Below the pieces are notes generated by a model, which was not told where the DNA came from, made no database searches, and was given only the letters and a program-made list of their open reading frames with translations. Positions 1,992 through 35,354 of a DNA stretch of 44,646 nucleotides are shown piece by piece. Position numbers and translations under genes: made by a program. Where the stretch lies: positions 1 to 44,646 of the IMG/VR virus record IMGVR_UViG_3300049794_000035; one strand, written 5' to 3'. This DNA comes from a virus. Numbering within the stretch: position 1 is the stretch's first letter; the number at the start of each line of letters is the position of its first letter.

Positions 1992-2525
1992 ATGTCAACT
2001 TGGGTAAGCCAAGGAGTTTTAAAAGGTGCAACCGGAGCCACTGGAAGCACCGGGCCAGCCGGTTCCGGTTTTCAATGGCAGGGAGCCTACAACGCGGGCA
2101 CGGCCTACGTGCTCAACGACGTGGTTTCTTACACCGACGGCTCGACCTACGTTTGCACGGCGCCCACTACCGGGCATGTACCGACAAACGCCACGTATTG
2201 GGCACTCTTTACCAGTGCTGGAGCAACGGGCGCCACCGGTGGCATAGGGCAAGGGCTCACCTTTCGAGGAGCATATGCCGGAGGTACAACTTATGCGCCT
2301 TACGACATCGTCACCATCGGGGGGGATTCCTATATTTGTATCCTGACATCCACCGGTCACACTCCACCCAATGTGACCTACTGGACGCTAGTCGCTTCTC
2401 GAGGCAGCATCTACCAAGGCGTGTTTGCTAACTTCGGCGCACTTCCCACCATCGATGGCGTTAGCGTCCGTTTAAATGACACAGCGATGACTTCTGATAC
2501 ATCCACGATGTACGCCGCTAATTAA
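1992..2525 (+). CDS. Tail fibre protein with collagen-like repeat and two carbohydrate-binding-like modules
   Basis: A 177-residue protein. It opens with MSTWVSQGVLKGATGATGS, an N-terminus shared almost exactly with the protein at 3970-5454 and followed by a collagen-like Gly-Ala-Thr/Gly-Pro-Ala tract. Two copies of a roughly 45-residue module follow (WQGAYNAGTAYVLNDVVSY...Y.C...TTGHVPTN..YW and FRGAYAGGTTYAPYDIVTI...YIC...TGHTPPN..YW). These resemble the small aromatic CBM5/12-type chitin- or glycan-binding fold. The C-terminus is the 'YQGVFANFGALPTIDGV...' module found in the two preceding genes. It likely mediates host surface binding. No SD-like purine tract other than 'aaatagaaa' is seen before the ATG. 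Confidence 0.75.
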   Translation: MSTWVSQGVLKGATGATGSTGPAGSGFQWQGAYNAGTAYVLNDVVSYTDGSTYVCTAPTTGHVPTNATYWALFTSAGATGATGGIGQGLTFRGAYAGGTTYAPYDIVTIGGDSYICILTSTGHTPPNVTYWTLVASRGSIYQGVFANFGALPTIDGVSVRLNDTAMTSDTSTMYAAN

Positions 2526-6937: not shown

Positions 6938-7269
6938 GAGATCCTCCCGAGCGCGTCATCGCACGTCATCATGAGCCGCATCGCTTCGTTTGGCCTCTGC
7001 TCGCGCTCGTAGCCTTCTGGTCCGTCGACCACGTCAGCGCGATCGGCGAAATATTCCCGAGCCCCTTCCAACGCTTCCTCCAGGATCTCGATCTTAGCGT
7101 CTTTTTCAGCTAACTCCTGTAGCATGCGGTCATACGCCTGTACTTCGATCTTGCCCGCCGCAATCTTGAGTTCATCCTGTAATCCCGAAATCTCGGCGTC
7201 TTTCTTATCCAGCGCAGCCATGTAAGTGGCCTCCAGCCGTTCCAATTGTCCCATCAGTTCTTGGCTCAT
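6934..7269 (-). CDS. Coiled-coil protein, function unknown
   Basis: A 111-residue protein dominated by a long coiled coil (residues about 5-75, with repeated KKDAEISGLQDEL and EKDAKIEILEEAL). A polar tail ends with ALGRIS. It is charged and soluble with no enzymatic motif. Translation of the next gene is coupled through an ATGA overlap. Small coiled-coil proteins of this sort are common in phage early regions, and their roles are usually unknown. Confidence 0.5.
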   Translation of the reverse strand: MSQELMGQLERLEATYMAALDKKDAEISGLQDELKIAAGKIEVQAYDRMLQELAEKDAKIEILEEALEGAREYFADRADVVDGPEGYEREQRPNEAMRLMMTCDDALGRIS

Positions 7270-7290
7270 TTAGGTTGGTCGGTGAGATTT

Positions 7291-7362
7291 TCAGTTCGGG
7301 AACTGGCACATAAGGGCCGAGAAGCCGACGATTGAGACGATTAAAAAGAGGGCGAATAGCAT
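7291..7362 (-). CDS. Tiny one-segment membrane peptide (23 aa)
   Basis: The peptide starts MLFALFLIVSIVGFSALM and is almost entirely one hydrophobic helix. It lies four bases after the stop of 7367-7543. It is too short for firm calling, but similar tiny membrane ORFs occur elsewhere in this block (11931-12026 and 11830-11934), and it fills an otherwise empty stretch. Confidence 0.35.
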   Translation of the reverse strand: MLFALFLIVSIVGFSALMCQFPN

Positions 7363-7366
7363 ATAT

Positions 7367-7543
7367 TTATTGCTCCAAGATCCAAATTCGTTTCGGTTCC
7401 ACGGAGATCGGGGATTTAAATTGATAGCGAATCACTTCACGCGCTTCGTTGGTGTAAAATAGTTCCCGGTCATTGACTAAAGCTACTTGAGCGACTTGGC
7501 CATGGATTAGTACGAGATCACCAATTTGTATTCTGTTGTTCAC
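7367..7543 (-). CDS. Small beta-rich hypothetical protein (GTG start)
   Basis: A 58-residue protein starting at GTG (N-terminus MNNRIQIGDLVLIHGQVAQV). The pattern 'IGDLVLIHGQVAQVALVND.ELFYT' resembles a small SH3-like barrel. It ends KRIWILEQ. It was found by reading codons in a gap that has no longer ORF. The function is unknown. Confidence 0.45.
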   Translation of the reverse strand: MNNRIQIGDLVLIHGQVAQVALVNDRELFYTNEAREVIRYQFKSPISVEPKRIWILEQ

Positions 7544-8068: not shown

Positions 8069-8494
8069 CTATTTACGGGCGAGCGGATCAAAGGCTATAA
8101 AAAAGTCCAGGGTCGCTTCGACGGCGTCTGCGTAGTTATGGAGCACGAGCACGGTAAACCCGGCCGCGCGTAGCTCCGCGATCACTTCCTCTTGCACTGT
8201 CGAGAGCGTGTTATCCCCCACCTTGAACTCTATAAAAAGCGTCTGGCTGTATCTGCTGAAGATGGAAAAGTCTGGCCAACCTGGCCGGATCGGCGATTTC
8301 TTGCGCGGGTCGGTATGGATCACAAGTCCAAATTCGTGCCGGCGGAGGAAGCCTGAGAAATCGGCGTGCAGTTTTCGCTCCAGCCGAAGATCGACGCGCT
8401 CCTGGCAATCTTCGGCCGTCCAGCCCGCGCGCCCGTACTGTTTGCGGTCGGCGGGCGACATTAATTTCAGCAAGTTCTCAGGCAAGATAGTCAT
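8069..8494 (-). CDS. VRR-NUC domain nuclease
   Basis: A 141-residue protein of the VRR-NUC (PD-(D/E)XK) family. Motif residues are visible: GWPDF with Asp75, then FIEFK with Glu89 and Lys91, followed by the Q101-centred helix (STVQEEVIAELRAAG) and the strand VLVLHN, which is the family's usual order. Phage VRR-NUC proteins act as Holliday-junction- or flap-type nucleases in recombination or packaging. The start overlaps the end of the homing nuclease at 8491-9255 by four bases. The N-terminal 45 residues form a helical extension. Confidence 0.75.
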   Translation of the reverse strand: MTILPENLLKLMSPADRKQYGRAGWTAEDCQERVDLRLERKLHADFSGFLRRHEFGLVIHTDPRKKSPIRPGWPDFSIFSRYSQTLFIEFKVGDNTLSTVQEEVIAELRAAGFTVLVLHNYADAVEATLDFFIAFDPLARK

Positions 8495-9255
8495 GCCGAC
8501 CTTTTCAATTTAGCCCTTCTAATGACCCATGCATCTCGCTGTGATTCACTCATTTTCTTACGCGTTGCAGCACTGACAAACTCTCGCGTTTTTCTCATTT
8601 TCTGGAGAGTTTCTTCGCTGTGCCTTTTTCCAAACATATGATTGTTTTCACCGCGTTGTCTCTCACTTATCTGTTGTCCAAATTCCTTAGTGCGAATCCA
8701 ACTACTCATCTTCTGCCGAGTTTCCGCGCTCCTTACTTTGCCACGGAGAGCCTTGCTCATCTTCTGGAGAGTTTCAGCGCTAGCAATTCTTCCAACATGC
8801 ACTTTCCTCAGAGCTAAGCGTGTTGTTTCCAGCATTGGCTTCCCAGTAAGTGCTTTACTTATTTTGTCACAGGATTCTTTTGAGTATACAAAACCAGACA
8901 TTCCGCCGCCGCCGTCCGTTAGATTGCAGAGAGTTTCTCTGCCAAAGGTCGTAATAAAAAACCTTTCGGAAAGAAAGCACGCTTTCTCATCCTCGCATTG
9001 AAGTAGTACCTCGTAGATAGGTGCGGAGTAGCCAGCGCGGAAAATCGAGGTCAACTTATTATGAAGTTTAGGATTTCCTCTCGGCTTACCAATAAGCATA
9101 TTCTTCCAGTGCTCGTGCATCCGCCCATTGGAACCCTTCCCGACATAGATGGGTGCGAAATTTCTCGGATCGCGCAACAGATACACGTAGAATGTCACAC
9201 TATATATATCGGTTGTTTCACCTCGTTCCTGAAAAAGATTGTCGGGGATGATCAT
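8491..9255 (-). CDS. GIY-YIG homing-type endonuclease with NUMOD3 repeats (copy 1)
   Basis: Up to 254 residues. From Val20 (FYVYLLRDP...IYVGKG) it matches the two other nucleases of this window: GIY-YIG-type catalytic domain with Tyr pairs, Arg and a catalytic Glu in SERFF, then a C-terminal array of about five NUMOD3 repeats (S-AET-QKMSKA type) for DNA binding. The homologous start would be GTG at 9198. The ATG at 9255 overlaps the stop of 9252-9452 and adds 19 residues (MIIPDNLFQERGETTDIYS) not found in the other copies. It is inserted between small early genes. Confidence 0.8.
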   Translation of the reverse strand: MIIPDNLFQERGETTDIYSVTFYVYLLRDPRNFAPIYVGKGSNGRMHEHWKNMLIGKPRGNPKLHNKLTSIFRAGYSAPIYEVLLQCEDEKACFLSERFFITTFGRETLCNLTDGGGGMSGFVYSKESCDKISKALTGKPMLETTRLALRKVHVGRIASAETLQKMSKALRGKVRSAETRQKMSSWIRTKEFGQQISERQRGENNHMFGKRHSEETLQKMRKTREFVSAATRKKMSESQRDAWVIRRAKLKRSA

Positions 9256-12197: not shown

Positions 12198-13232
12198 TTA
12201 AACTCTTCGCCGGCTTCGATCTCCGCTTCCTTGGAAATGATTATTAACCAGCGGGTGATCTGCAAGAGGATCATCGAAAAGCAACGTTTCTTGTTCGTGG
12301 TCCACGTCAGCTAAGGCCATGTTTTTAATAGCTTGCCGAAAATAAGACGCCTTCAATTCAATTCCTATACCGCGGCGCCCATTGATAATTGCGCCATAAA
12401 CCTCAGAGCCTACCCCCATGAAAGGAGTTAAAACGATGTCATTGGGGTTCGACCACAATTGCACTAGTCGCTCGATCACGTCGAGCATCATAGGGTGGCA
12501 ATGTTTTTCTTCTTCGCTCTCACGAGCTTCTCGATACGGAAGAACATGATTTGTCCTGATGTCGTCCCAGAACGCAGAGGCATACTGCTGCCAAATCCAA
12601 TGCGCCCGCTTGTTCGTCTTGTGATCTTTCCAATTCTTGAACTTCACGTCTAGGTCGCGCGGGATCTCTCGCTCACCACAGTACTTTTGCAGTCCTTCGG
12701 GATGCCGAATTGGCTCTTTGCTTTGTCCCGGTTTCCTCAACACGACAACGAAATTCGCGCCGGCGTTGTTGCAGAAGCTTGAGTCCTTCACTATCTGCGA
12801 GTGCCTCAGTCCTTTGGATCGAGTCCGTATAGCTTGGCGAAGCGGTTCCTTCCATATGGCGAATCTGGCCCAATACTTGAATCCTAGTCTTTGATGTTGC
12901 CTGATTATGTCTCCAGGAAAATCAATGTAACCTTCGCTTCCCTCTCCCACTCCCGCCTTTGGCACATCCATGCACTCAACACATGTCATTCGACCCGGCA
13001 CCGTCAGGCGATACAGTTCTTTGACCACAAAGTCGTAATGCTCGAAAAACTGTTTGTAGTTCAAGGAATTGCTCAGGTCTTCCTCCGAGCTGGAATACTG
13101 ATAAAGGCCTCCGTATGGTGGCGAGTAGATCGACAGACCGATTGAGTTAGCCGGCAAGTCTTTCATTGCTTCGACGCAATCGCCGTTTATTAACGAGTAG
13201 TGATTCTTTGTGACTTGATCTAAGATAGCCAT
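12198..13232 (-). CDS. DNA methyltransferase (beta class, SPPY motif)
   Basis: A 344-residue S-adenosylmethionine-dependent DNA methyltransferase. Catalytic motif IV is SPPY at residues 37-40 and the AdoMet-binding FMGVGS motif is at 271-276. The order (catalytic motif first, FxGxG last) is that of the beta class. SPPY is typical of N4-cytosine enzymes and also occurs in some N6-adenine ones. It overlaps the helicase gene upstream by 13 bases. It probably protects phage DNA from host restriction; the modified sequence cannot be predicted. Confidence 0.85.
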   Translation of the reverse strand: MAILDQVTKNHYSLINGDCVEAMKDLPANSIGLSIYSPPYGGLYQYSSSEEDLSNSLNYKQFFEHYDFVVKELYRLTVPGRMTCVECMDVPKAGVGEGSEGYIDFPGDIIRQHQRLGFKYWARFAIWKEPLRQAIRTRSKGLRHSQIVKDSSFCNNAGANFVVVLRKPGQSKEPIRHPEGLQKYCGEREIPRDLDVKFKNWKDHKTNKRAHWIWQQYASAFWDDIRTNHVLPYREARESEEEKHCHPMMLDVIERLVQLWSNPNDIVLTPFMGVGSEVYGAIINGRRGIGIELKASYFRQAIKNMALADVDHEQETLLFDDPLADHPLVNNHFQGSGDRSRRRV

Positions 13233-18484: not shown

Positions 18485-19609
18485 GTGGACTCCCCTCGAC
18501 GGATCGATTCAGAAGCGCTGCAGCGCGAAATCTTCGCGAACCTCGAAAGCTTCCTCCAACACTTGTACCCAAATGGGACGCTTAACCGACACAAACATCT
18601 GTTTTTTATCGGCGACCTGGATGGCAACGGTGGAAAATCCACCAAAATTAATCTCACCGGAGAGCACAAAGGTGTGGCCTACGACTGGCAGACGCAGAAC
18701 GCATCTGCGGACTGGATTGCGGTCTGGATGCGTAATAACCGGGTCGATTTCCGAAAAGCGTGCGACCAGATTTGCGAAGCGATAGGAGTTCCCCTCAGTG
18801 CAGTGGGAGAGCTCCCCGGGCCCGAGACAGAGGCGGCTCCTGATCCAACCAGACAAACTGATCGCGCGCCGGAAAAACAAAGCGACCAGATCATCTGGCC
18901 AAAGCCTGATTACATTTACGTCGATGAGGAAGTTTGCAATGCGATCTCGCTTTACGATTTAGAAGAAGCTTCGCCCATTCGTTTCACTGACGAGGATGCT
19001 CAAACCGAGACGGTGATCGACAGCCTTTTTCCTGACAATCCTTTTCTATGCGTCGGCAAAGCAGCTAACATCTTTTGCACCCGTCGCCGGGAAAAACTCC
19101 GCGGCCGGATGGAGGCCTGCCAGTTCATTGTGCCAAACCCAATGCGGCACTGGTACGGATTCAATGCCGATGGCAACCAAAGCGAGCGCTGCGCCGATAA
19201 TATCGGTCCCCGTCATTATCTCGTCATCGAATGCGATTTTACGAAGTACAAGCTCAACAAACGCACTAACCAGCTTGACGCGACTAGGTGGCTACCATTC
19301 ATCAACAAATGGTCGAGCCGTGGAATAGAAATCGCGGACGCGTGTGCTTCGCTCCTATGGGTAATCGCTGAACATCTGCCGCTGGTTTTAGTTGTCTCCT
19401 CCGGCGGCAAAAGTTTGCACGGTTGGTTTCGAACCTGCGGACTCAACGAAACGGATCTGTTGTCCTACATGAAATTCGCGGTCAGTATCGGCGCGGATTC
19501 GGCAACATGGCGCCCGTTTCAACTCGTCCGAATGCCCGGAGGGCTCCGTGACAACGGTAATCGTCAAAGCGTACTGTATTTCAATCCTGATGCTCGTTTC
19601 GACAGGTAA
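18485..19609 (+). CDS. Phage DNA primase (archaeo-eukaryotic primase-like)
   Basis: A 374-residue protein starting at GTG 18485. The N-terminal domain (about 1-100) resembles the regulatory region of phage primases ('NLTGEHKGVAYDWQT'). The C-terminal half has the catalytic-type Asp in IECDF (about 248-252) and the SGGKSLHGWF motif (306-315). Near the end it carries 'QLVRMPGGLRDNG', a signature seen in many phage primases. It is followed directly by the RepA-like helicase (TAATG overlap), a primase-helicase pair typical of phage replication. The start is uncertain because no clear SD precedes it. Confidence 0.8.
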   Translation: MDSPRRIDSEALQREIFANLESFLQHLYPNGTLNRHKHLFFIGDLDGNGGKSTKINLTGEHKGVAYDWQTQNASADWIAVWMRNNRVDFRKACDQICEAIGVPLSAVGELPGPETEAAPDPTRQTDRAPEKQSDQIIWPKPDYIYVDEEVCNAISLYDLEEASPIRFTDEDAQTETVIDSLFPDNPFLCVGKAANIFCTRRREKLRGRMEACQFIVPNPMRHWYGFNADGNQSERCADNIGPRHYLVIECDFTKYKLNKRTNQLDATRWLPFINKWSSRGIEIADACASLLWVIAEHLPLVLVVSSGGKSLHGWFRTCGLNETDLLSYMKFAVSIGADSATWRPFQLVRMPGGLRDNGNRQSVLYFNPDARFDR

Positions 19610-20769
19610 TGCACATGAGGAACGAGCATATCGATCAGAAGAAATCCTTAGAGAAGGTCAAGGCTTTCGTAGAAGACAGGCAGTACACCGAGGATGAGCC
19701 TGAACCGGTTCACGCGGTTCATATTGACCGGACCAATCTTTGGGAAGCGGGCACGGCCGAAATCGATAGGGGAAACTACCTGTTTTCGCATGGTTTTGAA
19801 CGGGGAAGCGGCGGGGTGATCGTTGCTCCCAGCGGGATTGGTAAAAGCGTACTAGCCATGCAGGCGGCCATGCATTGGGCCCTTGGTGAAACTGCTTTTG
19901 AAATTAAGGTTCCGGGCTCAATCAAGTCGTTAACGATCCAGGCCGAGGATTCAAAAAACGATATTCGGATGATTTGCAGAATGATCCGCCGATTCGATCT
20001 GAGTCTTGACCATCAAAACACACTCGCGACCAAGGCAATCATCAAAACGATAAAAGGTGCGTTTGGCCGGGATTTTTTGCGGTTTCTAAAAACTTCGATC
20101 CGCAGGGAGGAGCCCGACCTCGTCATTATCAACCCTTTGAGCGCGTTCATTGTCGATTTGAATCGGACTGAGCTTTTTCAGCCTTTTCTTTACGGTGACC
20201 TCGCAGGGATCATTGCTGAGTTTAATATCGGCCTAATCCTCATTCATCACACGCCCAAGTACGGGCGGACAGTACGGGGTGAAACCGGGAATGATCCTAT
20301 GTATGCCGGGGCCGGGCCGGCCCTTCTGACCAACTGGGCACGCTTCTACCTCACGATTGAGCCAGTTCGTGGCATCGAGGGGCTTTATCGTTTCACGGCG
20401 GGCAAAGGCAAAGACAAGCTCGGATGGCAAGAAAAGAGTCAATATTTTCAACACAATTTTGACGGCCACTCCTTCTATTGGGAAAAAGCGGAATTGCCTC
20501 CGAACTCGACGATTGAGAAAAAAGAAATGCAAACAAAGCTCACGGTCGACGATCTGGTGACCAAGCTGCATTTTACGCAGCCAATGCGGAAGACGCTTTT
20601 TGAGTCCGTTTGTCTTGAGGCTGGTTTTACGAAGCGCAAGTTCGAGGTGCTCTACGCTGATGCGATCGAAAACGAGAGAATTTTCGAGTTTCGGTTGAAG
20701 GAATCTGGCTACAAAACCGGCCAGCCGCCGGTCATGGTCAGCCGGAATAAACCAACGGAATATTGCTAA
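19609..20769 (+). CDS. RepA-like replicative helicase (AAA_25)
   Basis: A 386-residue RecA-fold ATPase of the RepA/DnaB-like hexameric group. Walker A is APSGIGKS at 73-80, Walker B is DLVIINPLSAF at 170-180, and the 'LILIHHTPKYGRTVRG' motif follows at about 215, which is characteristic of the AAA_25 family. Its start overlaps the primase stop. With the repeat array right after it, this suggests an origin-helicase arrangement. The C-terminal 90 residues are basic and may bind DNA or the primase. Confidence 0.85.
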   Translation: MHMRNEHIDQKKSLEKVKAFVEDRQYTEDEPEPVHAVHIDRTNLWEAGTAEIDRGNYLFSHGFERGSGGVIVAPSGIGKSVLAMQAAMHWALGETAFEIKVPGSIKSLTIQAEDSKNDIRMICRMIRRFDLSLDHQNTLATKAIIKTIKGAFGRDFLRFLKTSIRREEPDLVIINPLSAFIVDLNRTELFQPFLYGDLAGIIAEFNIGLILIHHTPKYGRTVRGETGNDPMYAGAGPALLTNWARFYLTIEPVRGIEGLYRFTAGKGKDKLGWQEKSQYFQHNFDGHSFYWEKAELPPNSTIEKKEMQTKLTVDDLVTKLHFTQPMRKTLFESVCLEAGFTKRKFEVLYADAIENERIFEFRLKESGYKTGQPPVMVSRNKPTEYC

Positions 20770-20787: not shown

Positions 20788-21197
20788 AAATAGTTCTTTC
20801 CCACTTTTTTGACTACTGGGAAAGAACTCGGTCTCAACAGGTCTCTTTTTACCCGGTTTTCCCTCGTAAGTAACCACTGTCAGAGTTCTTCAACGGTTAC
20901 TGGGAAAGAACTATTTACGCAAAATGCGGATTTAACCCCTGTTTTCCCTCGTAAAATGCCGCCTAGACAGTGGGTGAAATAGTTCTTTCCCATCACCCCC
21001 TCTTCTTAAGAAGAAGAAAGAGGGGGGGGTGAAGGTAAACAACTCTTCACCCCCAACGTCCTTACCCTACCCTAAAAGAGAACAAACACAAAAGAACTCG
21101 GGAAAGAACTCGGGAAAGAACTCGGTTTCTATAGGGAGAAAGAGCCAAATGGAAAGACTTAGAATAAATTACGCGGGAAAGAACTCGGGAAAGAACT
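20788..21197. repeat. Array of AAAGAACT-centred repeats (putative origin and/or operators)
   Basis: The core AAAGAACT occurs at 20821, 20905, 21091, 21103, 21115, 21178 and 21190 on the plus strand, and inverted (AGTTCTTT) at 20792 and 20981. Extended forms are GGGAAAGAACTCGG and its inverse. Two runs are phased at exactly 12 bases: 21091-21125 (three copies) and 21175-21197 (two copies, next to the RHH gene). A 16-base form (AAATAGTTCTTTCCCA) occurs at 20788-20803 and 20977-20992, and inverted at 20901-20916. A second direct repeat (gttttccctcgtaa) lies at 20856 and 20941. The roughly 490 bases between the helicase and the RHH gene hold no convincing ORF. Confidence 0.8.
20994..21054. other. 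Mutually exclusive hairpins (attenuator/terminator-like)
   Basis: The C-rich segment at about 20994-21000 can pair with the G run at 21022-21030, closing a stem around the palindrome tcttcttaagaaga (21001-21014). The same G run plus 'tgaag' can instead pair with cttcaccccc (21045-21054). The two folds exclude each other. A G-rich/C-rich hairpin without a T run is not a classic terminator, so replication or transcription pausing is an equal possibility. Confidence 0.5.
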
Positions 21198-21262
21198 AAT
21201 GTTTGGAAAATATTCTAAAGATTTTCTTGCTTTGTAAGGAATTTATTCTACGCTCCAGCGGA

Positions 21263-21478
21263 ATGAATCTTTCGCCTGAGTTTATGCCACAACACAACAA
21301 ACCACGCGTCAGGGACGGCGAAACCCTGGCCGTTTACCTAGACACTGCTGAGTATCTGGAGATACGTGCGGAAGCGGAAAGCTACGGGATGCGCCGGTCT
21401 GATTTTGCGCGCCGTCTCATTCGTATCGCCAGAAAACTCGTTAAACAAAATCCAGAATTACTCTTGAGCCGCGATTAA
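21263..21478 (+). CDS. Ribbon-helix-helix DNA-binding protein
   Basis: About 71 residues from ATG 21263 (MNLSPEFMPQ); ATG 21284 or TTG 21203 are alternative starts. A strand (ETLAVYLDTAE) is followed by two helices (YLEIRAEAESYG and RRSDFARRLIRIARKLV), the layout of Arc/MetJ-type RHH repressors. It sits directly after an array of AAAGAACT repeats phased by 12 bases, so it may regulate itself or bind the repeats as an origin- or partition-like protein. Confidence 0.65.
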   Translation: MNLSPEFMPQHNKPRVRDGETLAVYLDTAEYLEIRAEAESYGMRRSDFARRLIRIARKLVKQNPELLLSRD

Positions 21479-21507: not shown

Positions 21508-21569
21508 ATAACTCGTAACATCATACAATAGATGATGTCTCTATAAGTGCCTCAGCACTAACGAGTTAT
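21508..21569 (+). ncRNA. Putative structured element: perfect three-way junction
   Basis: A 9-bp outer stem (ATAACTCGT 21508-21516 with ACGAGTTAT 21561-21569) encloses two inner hairpins: a 7-bp stem with 7-base loop (ACATCAT 21518-21524 / ATGATGT 21532-21538) and a 5-bp stem with 4-base loop (AGTGC 21546-21550 / GCACT 21555-21559). All three stems are perfect. It lies between the RHH gene and the terminase. It could be an RNA (regulatory or packaging), a DNA cruciform or a pac/cos-associated site. Pairing also allows an alternative hairpin (aagtgc with gcactt at 21571). No tRNA-like features were seen. Confidence 0.5.
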
Positions 21570-21605
21570 AGCACTTTCTCCGAGCGATTCCAGTTATTTT
21601 TTTCT

Positions 21606-21622
21606 AGCTATTTTAAATAGCT
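21606..21622. promoter_or_regulatory. Palindrome AGCTATTT-T-AAATAGCT (operator-like)
   Basis: A perfect inverted repeat with 8-base arms and a single central base, in the AT-rich stretch upstream of the terminase genes. It is of the size and symmetry of a dimeric repressor site. Direct evidence is the palindrome only. Confidence 0.35.
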
Positions 21623-21654
21623 CTGAAGGCTGGAAGTAATTCGATTCTAAGGAT

Positions 21655-21675
21655 TGTTCCGCGCGGAACATTTTT
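21655..21675 (+). terminator. Palindrome TGTTCCGCGCGGAACA followed by T5 (terminator- or operator-like)
   Basis: A perfect 16-base palindrome (6-bp stem plus GCGC) followed by five T residues, about 45 bases upstream of the small terminase ATG. It could be a short intrinsic terminator ending transcription from the RHH gene side, or an operator. A direct repeat GTTAGAT occurs twice at 21677 and 21686. The stem is short, so it remains a candidate only. Confidence 0.35.
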
Positions 21676-22236: not shown

Positions 22237-22277
22237 AGAATGTCATGAAATAACCGATTTATAAAGTGTGACATTCT
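22237..22277 (+). promoter_or_regulatory. Hairpin covering the homing nuclease start codon (copy 2)
   Basis: AGAATGTCA (22237-22245) is the inverse of TGACATTCT (22269-22277), with 23 bases between. The GTG start codon at 22268 is partly inside the 3' arm. The loop carries the TATA-like CCGATTTATAAAG (22254-22266). Comparable translational hairpins in T4 delay homing endonuclease synthesis until late times; here the idea is inference. A nearly identical leader precedes copy 1. Confidence 0.5.
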
Positions 22278-22900
22278 ACACATACCTGCTGCGTGATCCG
22301 AGAGACTTCGAGCCGATTTATGTCGGGAAAGGCAATGGCCGAAGGATATTCAGGCATTGGATAGAAATGCTGGGAGGCAGATCAGATAAGAACCGAAAGC
22401 TGTACAACAAGCTGACCACCATCTTTCGAGCCGGGTATGCAGCGCCGATCTACGAGAAATTGCTGCAATGCGAGGACGAACAAGCCTGCTTCGTAGTGGA
22501 GCGGTTTTTCATTAAAGCGATTGGGAGGGAGAACCTTTGCAATCTGACGGACGGTGGCGATGGAGCGTCTGGGGCTATTCGATCCGCTGAGACTCGTCAA
22601 AGGATGAGCAAAAAAAAGAGTGTGGATCACAATCGTAAAGTTGCCGACGCACTCCGCGGAAGAATATTCACCGCCGAGCATCGCCAAAATATAAGCAAAG
22701 GTTCCCGCGGCAAGATTATCACTGCTGAACACCGTCAAAATATCAGCAAGGCAGGTCTTGGACGAATAAAGAGTGCTGAAGAGTGTCAAAAACTGAGTGT
22801 AGCATTGCTTGGTCATGTCCACAGTCCTGAGACTCGGCAAAAAATGCGAGAAGCGTGGGTTGTCCGAAGAGGTAGAGAGGAACGGGCAGTATGCATCTAG
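22268..22900 (+). CDS. GIY-YIG homing-type endonuclease with NUMOD3 repeats (copy 2)
   Basis: A 210-residue protein starting at GTG. The N-terminal catalytic domain has YTYLLRDP and IYVGKG (residues about 4-22), Arg25/26 and a catalytic-type Glu78 in VERFF. From about residue 102 there are five NUMOD3-like repeats (S/T-AE-RQ-.SK, for example GRIFTAEHRQNISKG) that bind DNA. It is wedged between small and large terminase genes and overlaps the latter by 10 bases. Free-standing homing endonucleases near terminase genes are known in phages. It likely cleaves terminase-region DNA of a rival phage. Confidence 0.85.
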   Translation: MTFYTYLLRDPRDFEPIYVGKGNGRRIFRHWIEMLGGRSDKNRKLYNKLTTIFRAGYAAPIYEKLLQCEDEQACFVVERFFIKAIGRENLCNLTDGGDGASGAIRSAETRQRMSKKKSVDHNRKVADALRGRIFTAEHRQNISKGSRGKIITAEHRQNISKAGLGRIKSAEECQKLSVALLGHVHSPETRQKMREAWVVRRGREERAVCI

Positions 22901-32191: not shown

Positions 32192-33171
32192 GTGAAAACT
32201 ATCTAATTACTAGTGCCTATGCCGTCCCTTTGAACGGCGAAACGCCTGCGAAAATCATGTATATGCCGGCCGGCAAATCCACGATCCGCGCCAACGTCAA
32301 CGGCAAACCGAAAGAGATCAGTGTCAACGTGACGTCGAAAACGGCTGACATTTTGCAAGCCAGTCTCACTGAATTAATGGCTGAACCGGTGGAGCCGTTT
32401 GTCGATTTCGATCACAAAAGCGAAGCCTCGGCTGCGTTACCGACTTGTTTTAAGTGGACCGACCAAGGCGTCTGGATGGGGGTGGAATGGACGAGCGCTG
32501 GCAAGTCGGCTATCGAAGGCAAAGCTTACCGCTACTTTAGCCCGACCTTTCTCTTAAGCGAAGCCGGCGAGCCCTCGGCGCTTCCGGACTCGGGGCCAGT
32601 CGGCGCTTTGACTAACAACCCAGCTTTCAGGAAAATGAAACGAATTACCGCGGCTAAAGCCGCAAAAACCGCTGACGACGAGCCAGCGAACACAAAGGAA
32701 AAACACATGGCTGAAGAAGCTACAGAACAAGTGACGGCTGCGCTCAGATCCGAAGTGGAAACTCTGCGCGCCGAAAACAAGACGTTGCGCGAAACCGCGG
32801 AAACCCAGCGCGTGGAAGCGATTAACCGCGATGCCGATCTCCTGATCGAGGCGGCCGTAAAAGACGGAAAAATCGCGCCTAAAAATGAAACCGTGAAAGC
32901 ATCTTTGAAAAGGTGGGCAATTACGGATTTGGCTGGGGCAAAAGCTCATATCGAGTCGTTACCGGTTAACCCGGCGTTTAAAACGGTGGTTACCGTGACG
33001 AGCGCGCATCGGGATGTCGGGAGCCCGGCGGGAACGGCTAGTGGCGATGAATGCAAGGCGATCGTGAAAAAGATCCAGGCTTCGCACGAAGGTATGAGCT
33101 GGGATGACGCTTGGAGCATCGCTGAATCGGAGTATCCCGAAAAATTCGGTAAAATCAAAGTGGCAGCCTAG
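32188..33171 (+). CDS. Capsid maturation protease with scaffold (Mu gpI-like)
   Basis: 327 residues from ATG 32188 (MSENYLITSAYAVPLNGET). The N-terminal domain resembles the Mu gpI protease family: a conserved-looking FVDFDHKSEA segment with candidate His76 and a 'YRYFSPTF' segment with candidate Ser118. The C-terminal part (from about residue 174) is a charged, helical scaffold-like region (EQVTAALRSEVETLRAENKTL) carrying an internal start and SD (see next entry). It acts in prohead assembly, with the scaffold cleaved by the protease. Confidence 0.75.
   Translation: MSENYLITSAYAVPLNGETPAKIMYMPAGKSTIRANVNGKPKEISVNVTSKTADILQASLTELMAEPVEPFVDFDHKSEASAALPTCFKWTDQGVWMGVEWTSAGKSAIEGKAYRYFSPTFLLSEAGEPSALPDSGPVGALTNNPAFRKMKRITAAKAAKTADDEPANTKEKHMAEEATEQVTAALRSEVETLRAENKTLRETAETQRVEAINRDADLLIEAAVKDGKIAPKNETVKASLKRWAITDLAGAKAHIESLPVNPAFKTVVTVTSAHRDVGSPAGTASGDECKAIVKKIQASHEGMSWDDAWSIAESEYPEKFGKIKVAA
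32707..33171 (+). CDS. Nested scaffold protein (internal start in the protease gene)
   Basis: ATG 32707 (MAEEATEQVTAALRSEV) is in frame with the protease gene and preceded by AAAGGA at 32694-32699 with seven bases' spacing. This would produce a separate 154-residue scaffold, as with Mu gpI/gpZ. The product is coiled-coil and acidic at first, then has a compact helical C-terminus (AIVKKIQASHEGMSWDDAWSI). The internal SD is the main evidence. Confidence 0.6.
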   Translation: MAEEATEQVTAALRSEVETLRAENKTLRETAETQRVEAINRDADLLIEAAVKDGKIAPKNETVKASLKRWAITDLAGAKAHIESLPVNPAFKTVVTVTSAHRDVGSPAGTASGDECKAIVKKIQASHEGMSWDDAWSIAESEYPEKFGKIKVAA

Positions 33172-34576: not shown

Positions 34577-34593
34577 AGGTATGGATAATACCT
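34577..34593 (+). promoter_or_regulatory. Hairpin over the start codon of homing nuclease copy 3
   Basis: AGGTAT (34577-34582) and ATACCT (34588-34593) form a perfect 6-bp stem with a 5-base loop, placing the ATG at 34581 inside the structure. A TATA-like element GTCGATTATATAGG (34566-34579) is adjacent. It resembles the arrangement at copy 2 and may delay translation; inference only. Confidence 0.45.
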
Positions 34594-35354
34594 TTTACGT
34601 CTACGCGATATCGGACCCGAGATCGACGGAAGTCATCTACATCGGAAAGGGCCAGGGATTGCGTATGCTGGATCATTGGAAGAAAATGATGGCCGGGAAA
34701 CCGGGGAAGAATTTGAAGCTTTACAACAAGCTGACAGCCATTTTCCGAGCTGGCTACCTCGCGCCCATCTACGAGAAGTTGATAGAAAACGTTGAGGAAA
34801 CGCTAGCGTTCTGGGCAGAGCGTTTTTGGATCAAGACTTTCGGACGCAAGAATCTCACAAACCTGACAGACGGTGGCGAGGGACCATCCGGCTGGACGCA
34901 TTCAGAAGAAACTCTCAAAAAGATGAGCGCAGCTTCGAGCGCCAAGACTCACACTGCCGAGACTAGGCAAAAGATGAGTTTGGTACAAACTGGACGAACA
35001 TTCAGCGCTGAGAGTATCCAGAAGATGTGTCTGTCTCAACGTGCAAGAATACGCGTACCCTTTACTCCTGAGCACTGTGAAAAAATAAGTAAGGCTGCTC
35101 GCGGAAGAATCTTTAGCGCTGAACACTGCTCGAACTTAAGCAAGGCGTTAGTTGGTAAAAAAATGAGTCCCGCATGGTGTGAAAAACAGAGCAACAGATG
35201 CCTTGGTAAACCTGCGCATCCGAATTCCCGATTAGCACTGCTTAAAGCTAATATTGGAAAGCCTTGCAGTGCTGAAAAACGGCAAAAAATACGTGAAACG
35301 AGGCTGAAGTACGAGGCTCGCCGTCGATTGGAGGCACTATGTGGAACACCCTGA
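34581..35354 (+). CDS. GIY-YIG homing-type endonuclease with NUMOD3 repeats (copy 3)
   Basis: A 257-residue protein, paralogous to copies at 8491-9255 and 22268-22900. The catalytic domain has FYVYAISDP and IYIGKG, then Arg and a catalytic-type Glu in AERFW. After it there are several NUMOD3-like repeats (about 110-245, such as GRTFSAESIQKMCLSQ), with an extra segment (PFTPEHCEKISKAARGRIF) and SAEKRQKIRE at the end. Inserted between the major capsid gene and the gp36-like gene. It overlaps the next gene start by 16 bases. Confidence 0.85.
   Translation: MDNTFYVYAISDPRSTEVIYIGKGQGLRMLDHWKKMMAGKPGKNLKLYNKLTAIFRAGYLAPIYEKLIENVEETLAFWAERFWIKTFGRKNLTNLTDGGEGPSGWTHSEETLKKMSAASSAKTHTAETRQKMSLVQTGRTFSAESIQKMCLSQRARIRVPFTPEHCEKISKAARGRIFSAEHCSNLSKALVGKKMSPAWCEKQSNRCLGKPAHPNSRLALLKANIGKPCSAEKRQKIRETRLKYEARRRLEALCGTP

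Follow-up and report, generated by a model that had tools for sequence, protein, structure and literature searches.

The window, that is, the whole of the 44,646-base viral contig IMGVR_UViG_3300049794_000035, contains at 20788-21250 what is probably an iteron replication origin, lying directly 3' of the phage's own primase and helicase genes. Three features by which iteron origins are recognized are found together here: specific short repeats, an adjoining replication gene, and an AT-rich segment of low stability. The original prediction had proposed a combined origin and operator for this segment, and the origin half of that proposal is supported by its position, by the AT-rich flank, by the pattern of GC skew and, above all, by the presence of arrays behind other primase-helicase genes.

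The two ends of the contig (1-147 and 44500-44646) overlap by 147 bp and match at 96%, with mismatches only near the extreme end, so the genome map is probably circular or circularly permuted. The overlap falls inside a tail-fibre-like gene. Among named phages, the best match to the TerL of the window is that of an Akkermansia phage (38% identity), which suggests a verrucomicrobial host. No similarity of the window to phages and plasmids was found at the DNA level, and no integrase was found in it.

The repeat array and the replication genes upstream

The core AAAGAACT occurs nine times in 20792-21197, seven times on the plus strand and twice on the minus strand, exactly as first counted. In the whole window there are 13 matches to this core against 1.48 expected, a number reached in 0 of 100 shuffles. 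Eight of the nine array copies extend to an identical 11-mer, GGGAAAGAACT, all eight exact copies of which lie within 406 bp of non-coding DNA, with zero elsewhere in the genome and a genome-wide expectation of 0.02 from base composition. A position-weight scan gave eight matches of at least 20.98 bits, the next best scoring 14.86, and no other part of the genome is as rich in short repeats as the array segment, with 173 equal 9-mer pairs compared with 15 for the runner-up. When viral and bacterial genome collections were searched with the paired repeat, exactly and with gaps, only chance or coding matches and no array elsewhere came back; conservation in other genomes, which the original prediction had offered as a check, is thus seen for the architecture, as described below, but not for the exact repeat.

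The more useful repeat unit is the 12-bp CGGGAAAGAACT, found on the plus strand as three tandem units at 21088-21122 (copy 5, which is degenerate, ACAAAAGAACT, and copies 6 and 7 at 21100 and 21112) and as two at 21174-21197 (copies 8 and 9 at 21175 and 21187). The 12-base phasing noticed earlier is present as tandem units, but its equation with one helical turn has to be given up, as 12 bp correspond to 1.14 turns. The left half departs from a simple array, being built of inverted pairs and an 84/85-bp duplication. Copy 1 (20792-20802, minus strand, an exact match to GGGAAAGAACT) pairs with copy 2 (20818-20828, plus strand, also an exact 11-mer) in a 12-bp stem with a 13-nt loop (fold z=-4.96), while copies 3 (20902-20912, plus strand) and 4 (20981-20991, minus strand), again both exact 11-mers, make up the perfect 16-bp stem of a large stem-loop at 20901-20992 with a 60-nt loop (z=-5.58). 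The duplication carries twice a second, degenerate box, CCCNGTTTTCCCTCGTAA, on the minus strand, the first copy at 20856-20869 (GTTTTCCCTCGTAA on the plus strand, equal to TTACGAGGGAAAAC on the minus strand) and the second, 85 bp from it, at 20941-20954. Between the left and right repeat groups is a C-run/G-run tandem double hairpin (20996-21052, composed of 20996-21026 and 21027-21052; z=-4.33). Among the copy spacings, 63, 84, and 189 bp are divisible by 21 and 198 bp is not; a 21-bp phasing of the copies was considered and dropped for that reason, and because part of the pattern stems from the 84/85-bp duplication. Adjoining the tandem copies is the AT-rich segment 21190-21249, which ranks second among the 60-mers of the genome for low stability (z=3.57) and is a candidate duplex-unwinding element or, otherwise, a candidate promoter of the RHH gene; the 60 bp of lowest stability lie at 17.5 kb. 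No DnaA boxes were found, and the only Rfam matches, microRNA-like ones to the G-rich hairpin, are due to chance.

The first copy of the array lies 23 bp past the stop codon of a RepA-like (AAA_25/RecA-fold) helicase gene (19609-20769, plus strand, 386 aa), in keeping with the position initially assigned to it. The product matches Pfam AAA_25 (E=1.3e-13), its best solved relative is the RepA of RSF1010 (PDB 1g8y, E=1.4e-5), and it aligns with a Shewanella Prim-Pol/PriCT-2/AAA_25 protein (23% over 341 alignment columns, E=8e-11). It also bears an extra C-terminal domain of ~100 aa, and its C-terminus aligns weakly to that of the Shewanella protein (E=3e-5). In a low-confidence single-sequence model (pLDDT 47), the extra domain has a helix-helix-strand pattern and is possibly a winged helix; a fold search with this model gave no fold match. 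The preceding gene (18485-19609, plus strand) encodes a primase-like protein of 374 aa, whose N-terminal domain is common to fused primase-helicases (NCBIfam PRK07078, E=5.6e-10, residues 7-103) and shows 31-34% to the N-termini of the Agarilytica and WO phage primase-helicases. Pfam returned no match for this protein, and we infer its AEP assignment, the AEP-like motifs VIECD, SGGKSLHGWF, and RMPGGLRDN having been recognized by eye in its C-terminal part. Family scans recognized no RepC-like iteron-binding protein in the replication region, and no close relatives of the helicase or of the primase were found among viral contigs.

The curve of cumulative GC skew is lowest at 17.2 kb, remains flat to about 21 kb and reaches its maximum at 41.8 kb, nearly opposite on the circle, with an amplitude matched in 0 of 2000 block permutations. 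The minimum coincides with a change of gene strand at 17.5 kb, which keeps the skew from fixing the origin at the array and blocks a finer placement. Third-position skew, taken from plus-strand genes only, is negative at 0-5.5 kb (-0.21), 41.8-44.6 kb (-0.14), and 17.5-20.8 kb (-0.05) and positive at 21.2-41.8 kb (+0.04). The skew agrees with bidirectional replication that starts in the 17-21 kb region.

Arrays behind primase-helicase genes in other replicons

The N-terminus of the primase-like protein and the helicase match fused primase-helicases from WO phages, from the Agarilytica plasmid pSU2, and the Shewanella protein mentioned above. With the pSU2 protein as a bridge, we reached Rhizobium phage RHph_Y3_1, P8625, AcaML1, Azospirillum, Eleftheria, and Singulisphaera, all comparators being picked by protein match before their gaps were inspected. 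Singulisphaera (plasmid pSINAC02) was reached via the primase region only, and the helicase of AcaML1 is of the D5_N/D5 type and is analogous, not closely homologous, to that of the window. In RHph_Y3_1, P8625, AcaML1, pSINAC02, and pSU2, the gene is a primase-helicase fusion and is followed by five to eight short repeats, whereas the window has split genes and different repeats.

The number of equal 7-mer pairs in the gap behind the gene exceeded the shuffle maximum (given in brackets) in RHph_Y3_1, with 118 (21), P8625, with 79 (6), AcaML1, with 50 (9), Azospirillum, with 44 (27), pSU2, with 33 (21), and Eleftheria, with 26 (21), the last being a weak array. Behind the related primase-helicases of WO phages and of two plasmids, one from Acinetobacter and one from Shewanella, no array was found. 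When the 300 bp past the stop codon of each ORF of at least 90 aa were ranked by repeat density, the primase-helicase stop came first of 121 in the window, first of 130 in RHph_Y3_1, second of 90 in P8625, second of 193 in AcaML1, and fifth of 55 in pSU2; in Singulisphaera and Azospirillum, the gap behind this gene is the most repeat-dense of its locus. The distance from stop codon to first copy, 23 bp in the window, is 3 bp in Rhizobium, 5 bp in P8625, 20 bp in AcaML1, 2 bp in Singulisphaera, and 15 bp in pSU2, and in all six of these replicons the copies are in mixed orientation. The repeat sequences themselves are lineage-specific and unlike one another between replicons. Strong hairpins are also present in the gaps of pSU2, Eleftheria, and P8625; since those of RHph_Y3_1 are not significant, we do not claim that the double hairpin is kept in all comparator gaps.

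Two of these arrays deserve a description of their own. In P8625 (KP792622), eight TATCGGCA repeats lie behind the primase/helicase gene across the junction of the record (32780-32894 and 1-75) and end in a strong hairpin; this array is a candidate origin of replication. The genome paper of P8625 mentions no such repeats (PMC4642752). In RHph_Y3_1 (MN988490), eight GGGAACG-type repeats at 12936-13225, behind the primase/helicase gene, have the top repeat density of the genome.

Phage relatives and alternative readings

Searches guided by TerL, TerS, and portal led to the two closest phage relatives, IMGVR_UViG_3300012926_000036 (66.5 kb; hereafter G001) and IMGVR_UViG_3300012203_000001 (65.1 kb; G002), which share with the window TerL (74-80%), portal (60-66%), and head genes. 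In both, the HNH, primase, and RepA-like helicase genes of the window are replaced by a DnaB-like helicase, a call that is based on a weak DnaB_C match in G002 only and was made by eye in G001. Both carry an integrase with a small RHH-like gene, recognized by eye, just before it, and neither contains a repeat array or an exact copy of GGGAAAGAACT. As they keep the RHH-like gene and TerS in the absence of the array, the array goes with the primase-helicase, and not with the RHH gene or the terminase.

Among the other explanations of the repeats, the least improbable, although we consider it unlikely, is the operator half of the original prediction, according to which the RHH protein binds the array to repress its own promoter and, perhaps, the late operon for packaging. 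The gene in question (21263-21478, plus strand, 71 aa; ATG at 21263, with alternative starts at 21203, TTG, and 21284, ATG) is itself a probable rather than a certain call, its match to the NikA-like family of Pfam (E=6e-4) being below the curated cut-off. RHH proteins often bind short tandem sites, the right-hand repeats stop 66 bp before the ATG, and the AT-rich segment could serve as the promoter of the gene. However, half of the sites are 270-470 bp upstream, near the helicase stop, and a sigma-70-like promoter was not found. The RHH-like genes of G001 and G002 occupy an equivalent place and have no repeats, albeit with proteins to which the RHH protein of the window does not align, and no RHH domain was recognized in the gene after the array in five comparator replicons. 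Both of these observations count against the operator; the RHH protein may nonetheless bind here as well.

The RHH-like genes of the relatives (locus L027, 2723-2887, minus strand, in G001; locus L043, about 2050-2230, plus strand, in G002) lie upstream of the integrase and of a tRNA-gene 3' end, an apparent attP, and their products are possible excision or lysogeny regulators. Pfam gave no match for the G001 protein. Also in locus L027 of G001, ~300 bp of non-coding AGCNN pentamers in 5-bp phase (AGCGTAGCCGAGCAGAGCC...) are present between early genes (7210-7505).

After the array, the gene order is the probable RHH gene, a structured gap, terS (21716), and terL. The array thus sits between the replication module and terS, a usual place of cos, and could be a packaging site (pac or cosB) at which TerS binds the repeats and packaging starts. 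The pac of P1, where repeats are found on both sides of the cut, provides a precedent. We regard this reading as very improbable: the TerS of the window is 66% identical to that of G001, most of the helix-turn-helix region included, and yet GGGAAAGAACT is absent from both relatives. Moreover, the distance from array to terS grows to about 2.4 kb in RHph_Y3_1 and about 8 kb in AcaML1, and no physical end is visible at the array, the contig ends overlapping in the tail-fibre-like gene instead. The non-coding stretch that separates the RHH gene from terS has structures of its own, namely a three-way junction at 21508-21570 (z=-6.4), a hairpin at 21586-21645, and the palindrome GTTCCGCGCGGAAC at 21656-21669, and could act as a terminator or as a site of packaging or recombination.

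In the circularized maps of both relatives, a block of ~20 kb of conjugation genes lies between terS and terL (loci L027-L030, 44.9-64 kb, in G001; loci L040-L043, 2-21.3 kb, in G002). According to Pfam, the G001 block encodes a TrwC relaxase-helicase, a TraG/TraD-type coupling protein, TrbI/VirB10, and a TraG/VirB4-type P-loop protein, and the G002 block is collinear with it. The window has no such block, and at this spot it carries one of its three related GIY-YIG/NUMOD3 homing-endonuclease-like genes (8491-9255, minus strand; 22268-22900 and 34581-35354, plus strand). An apparent type IV transfer module in tailed-phage genomes from two separate metagenomes merits its own study.

Just as improbable as the packaging site is a transcription stop or RNA structure, in which the inverted repeats would be hairpins that end the replication operon. 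The hairpins at 20792-20828, 20901-20992, and 20996-21052 are indeed very stable, but they are not followed by a U-run, the one terminator-like site listed in the array is weak, and the five same-strand tandem copies and the use of GGGAAAGAACT in both orientations would be left unexplained. A partition centromere of the parS/parC kind, to which an RHH partition protein would bind, is the least probable reading of all, since, although such proteins bind tandem repeats of about the size of the array unit and the phage, having no integrase that we could find, might persist as a plasmid, no ParA-type ATPase was found by an AAA_31 search that detects 14 of 14 controls, nor by Pfam and PHROGs scans.

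Proposed mechanism and comparison with known systems

For the iteron origin, we propose that the phage's own replication protein binds the GGGAAAGAACT copies, the likeliest reader being the C-terminal domain of the RepA-like helicase (20449-20769). That the helicase itself reads the repeats is the version we prefer, with a chance that we put at about even; the reader could instead be an unrecognized RepC-like protein or the RHH protein. The helicase would load on the array and melt the AT-rich segment 21190-21249 beside the tandem copies, and the primase-like protein (18485-19609) would then prime the exposed strand, perhaps at the hairpins in 20792-21052. More tentatively, and with somewhat less confidence than for the choice of reader, replicons with AAA_25 primase-helicases may form a broad class, in which lineage-specific iterons less than ~25 bp past the stop codon are read by a fast-evolving helicase C-terminal domain, and in which repeat and reader are exchanged as a module, here replacing the DnaB-type module of the relatives.

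If the proposal is true, the origin of an uncultured soil phage will have been placed from sequence alone, and a simple rule would follow, namely that the origin is to be sought just behind the stop codon of the primase-helicase. For P8625, which has been described as the first lytic phage infecting Verrucomicrobia, the rule flags a candidate origin not reported before, and small origin cassettes could become available for vectors in such bacteria.

An iteron origin behind a primase-helicase gene is already known from the SaPI, SCCmec Cch2, and P4 replicons; what is new is the sequence GGGAAAGAACT, the split pair of primase and RepA-like helicase in a phage lineage, and the candidate arrays of P8625 and, probably, of RHph_Y3_1. 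In the SaPIs, the C-terminal domain of Rep acts on iterons directly downstream of its own gene, and the same holds for Cch2 of SCCmec (PMC7581432). Both of these Staphylococcus systems (Rep/ori and Cch2/putative ori) resemble the window in having iterons directly 3' of the initiator-helicase gene and a helicase with an extra C-terminal domain, and SaPIs also encode an AEP-type primase (PMC7581432). They differ in that their helicase is of the DUF927 or D5 type, and not RepA-like AAA_25, and in that they are a satellite and a chromosomal cassette, respectively, whereas the window is a tailed phage in which binding is predicted.

Replication of the IncQ plasmid RSF1010 depends on RepC, RepA, and RepB' (PMC4234260). 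Its oriV shares with the window a homologous RepA helicase, a separate primase protein, and the combination of iterons and hairpins, while the window has no recognized RepC-like initiator, an extra helicase C-terminal domain, and repeats of 11-12 bp. The alpha protein of phage P4, in which a winged helix binds the origin repeats (PMC4234260), likewise belongs to a primase-helicase replicon with repeats at the origin, but it is a single protein with a TOPRIM primase, where the window has two polypeptides. In the Sulfolobus plasmid pRN1 (orf56/orf904), primase, helicase, and a C-terminal winged helix are again combined, the winged helix of the window being a possible one modelled with low confidence; unlike the window, its origin has no iterons and its helicase belongs to SF3. 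The stem-loop that forms the pRN1 origin lies downstream of the replication gene and has a 21-nt stem and a 58-nt loop (PMC4234260), to be compared with the 16-bp stem and 60-nt loop formed by copies 3 and 4 of the array.
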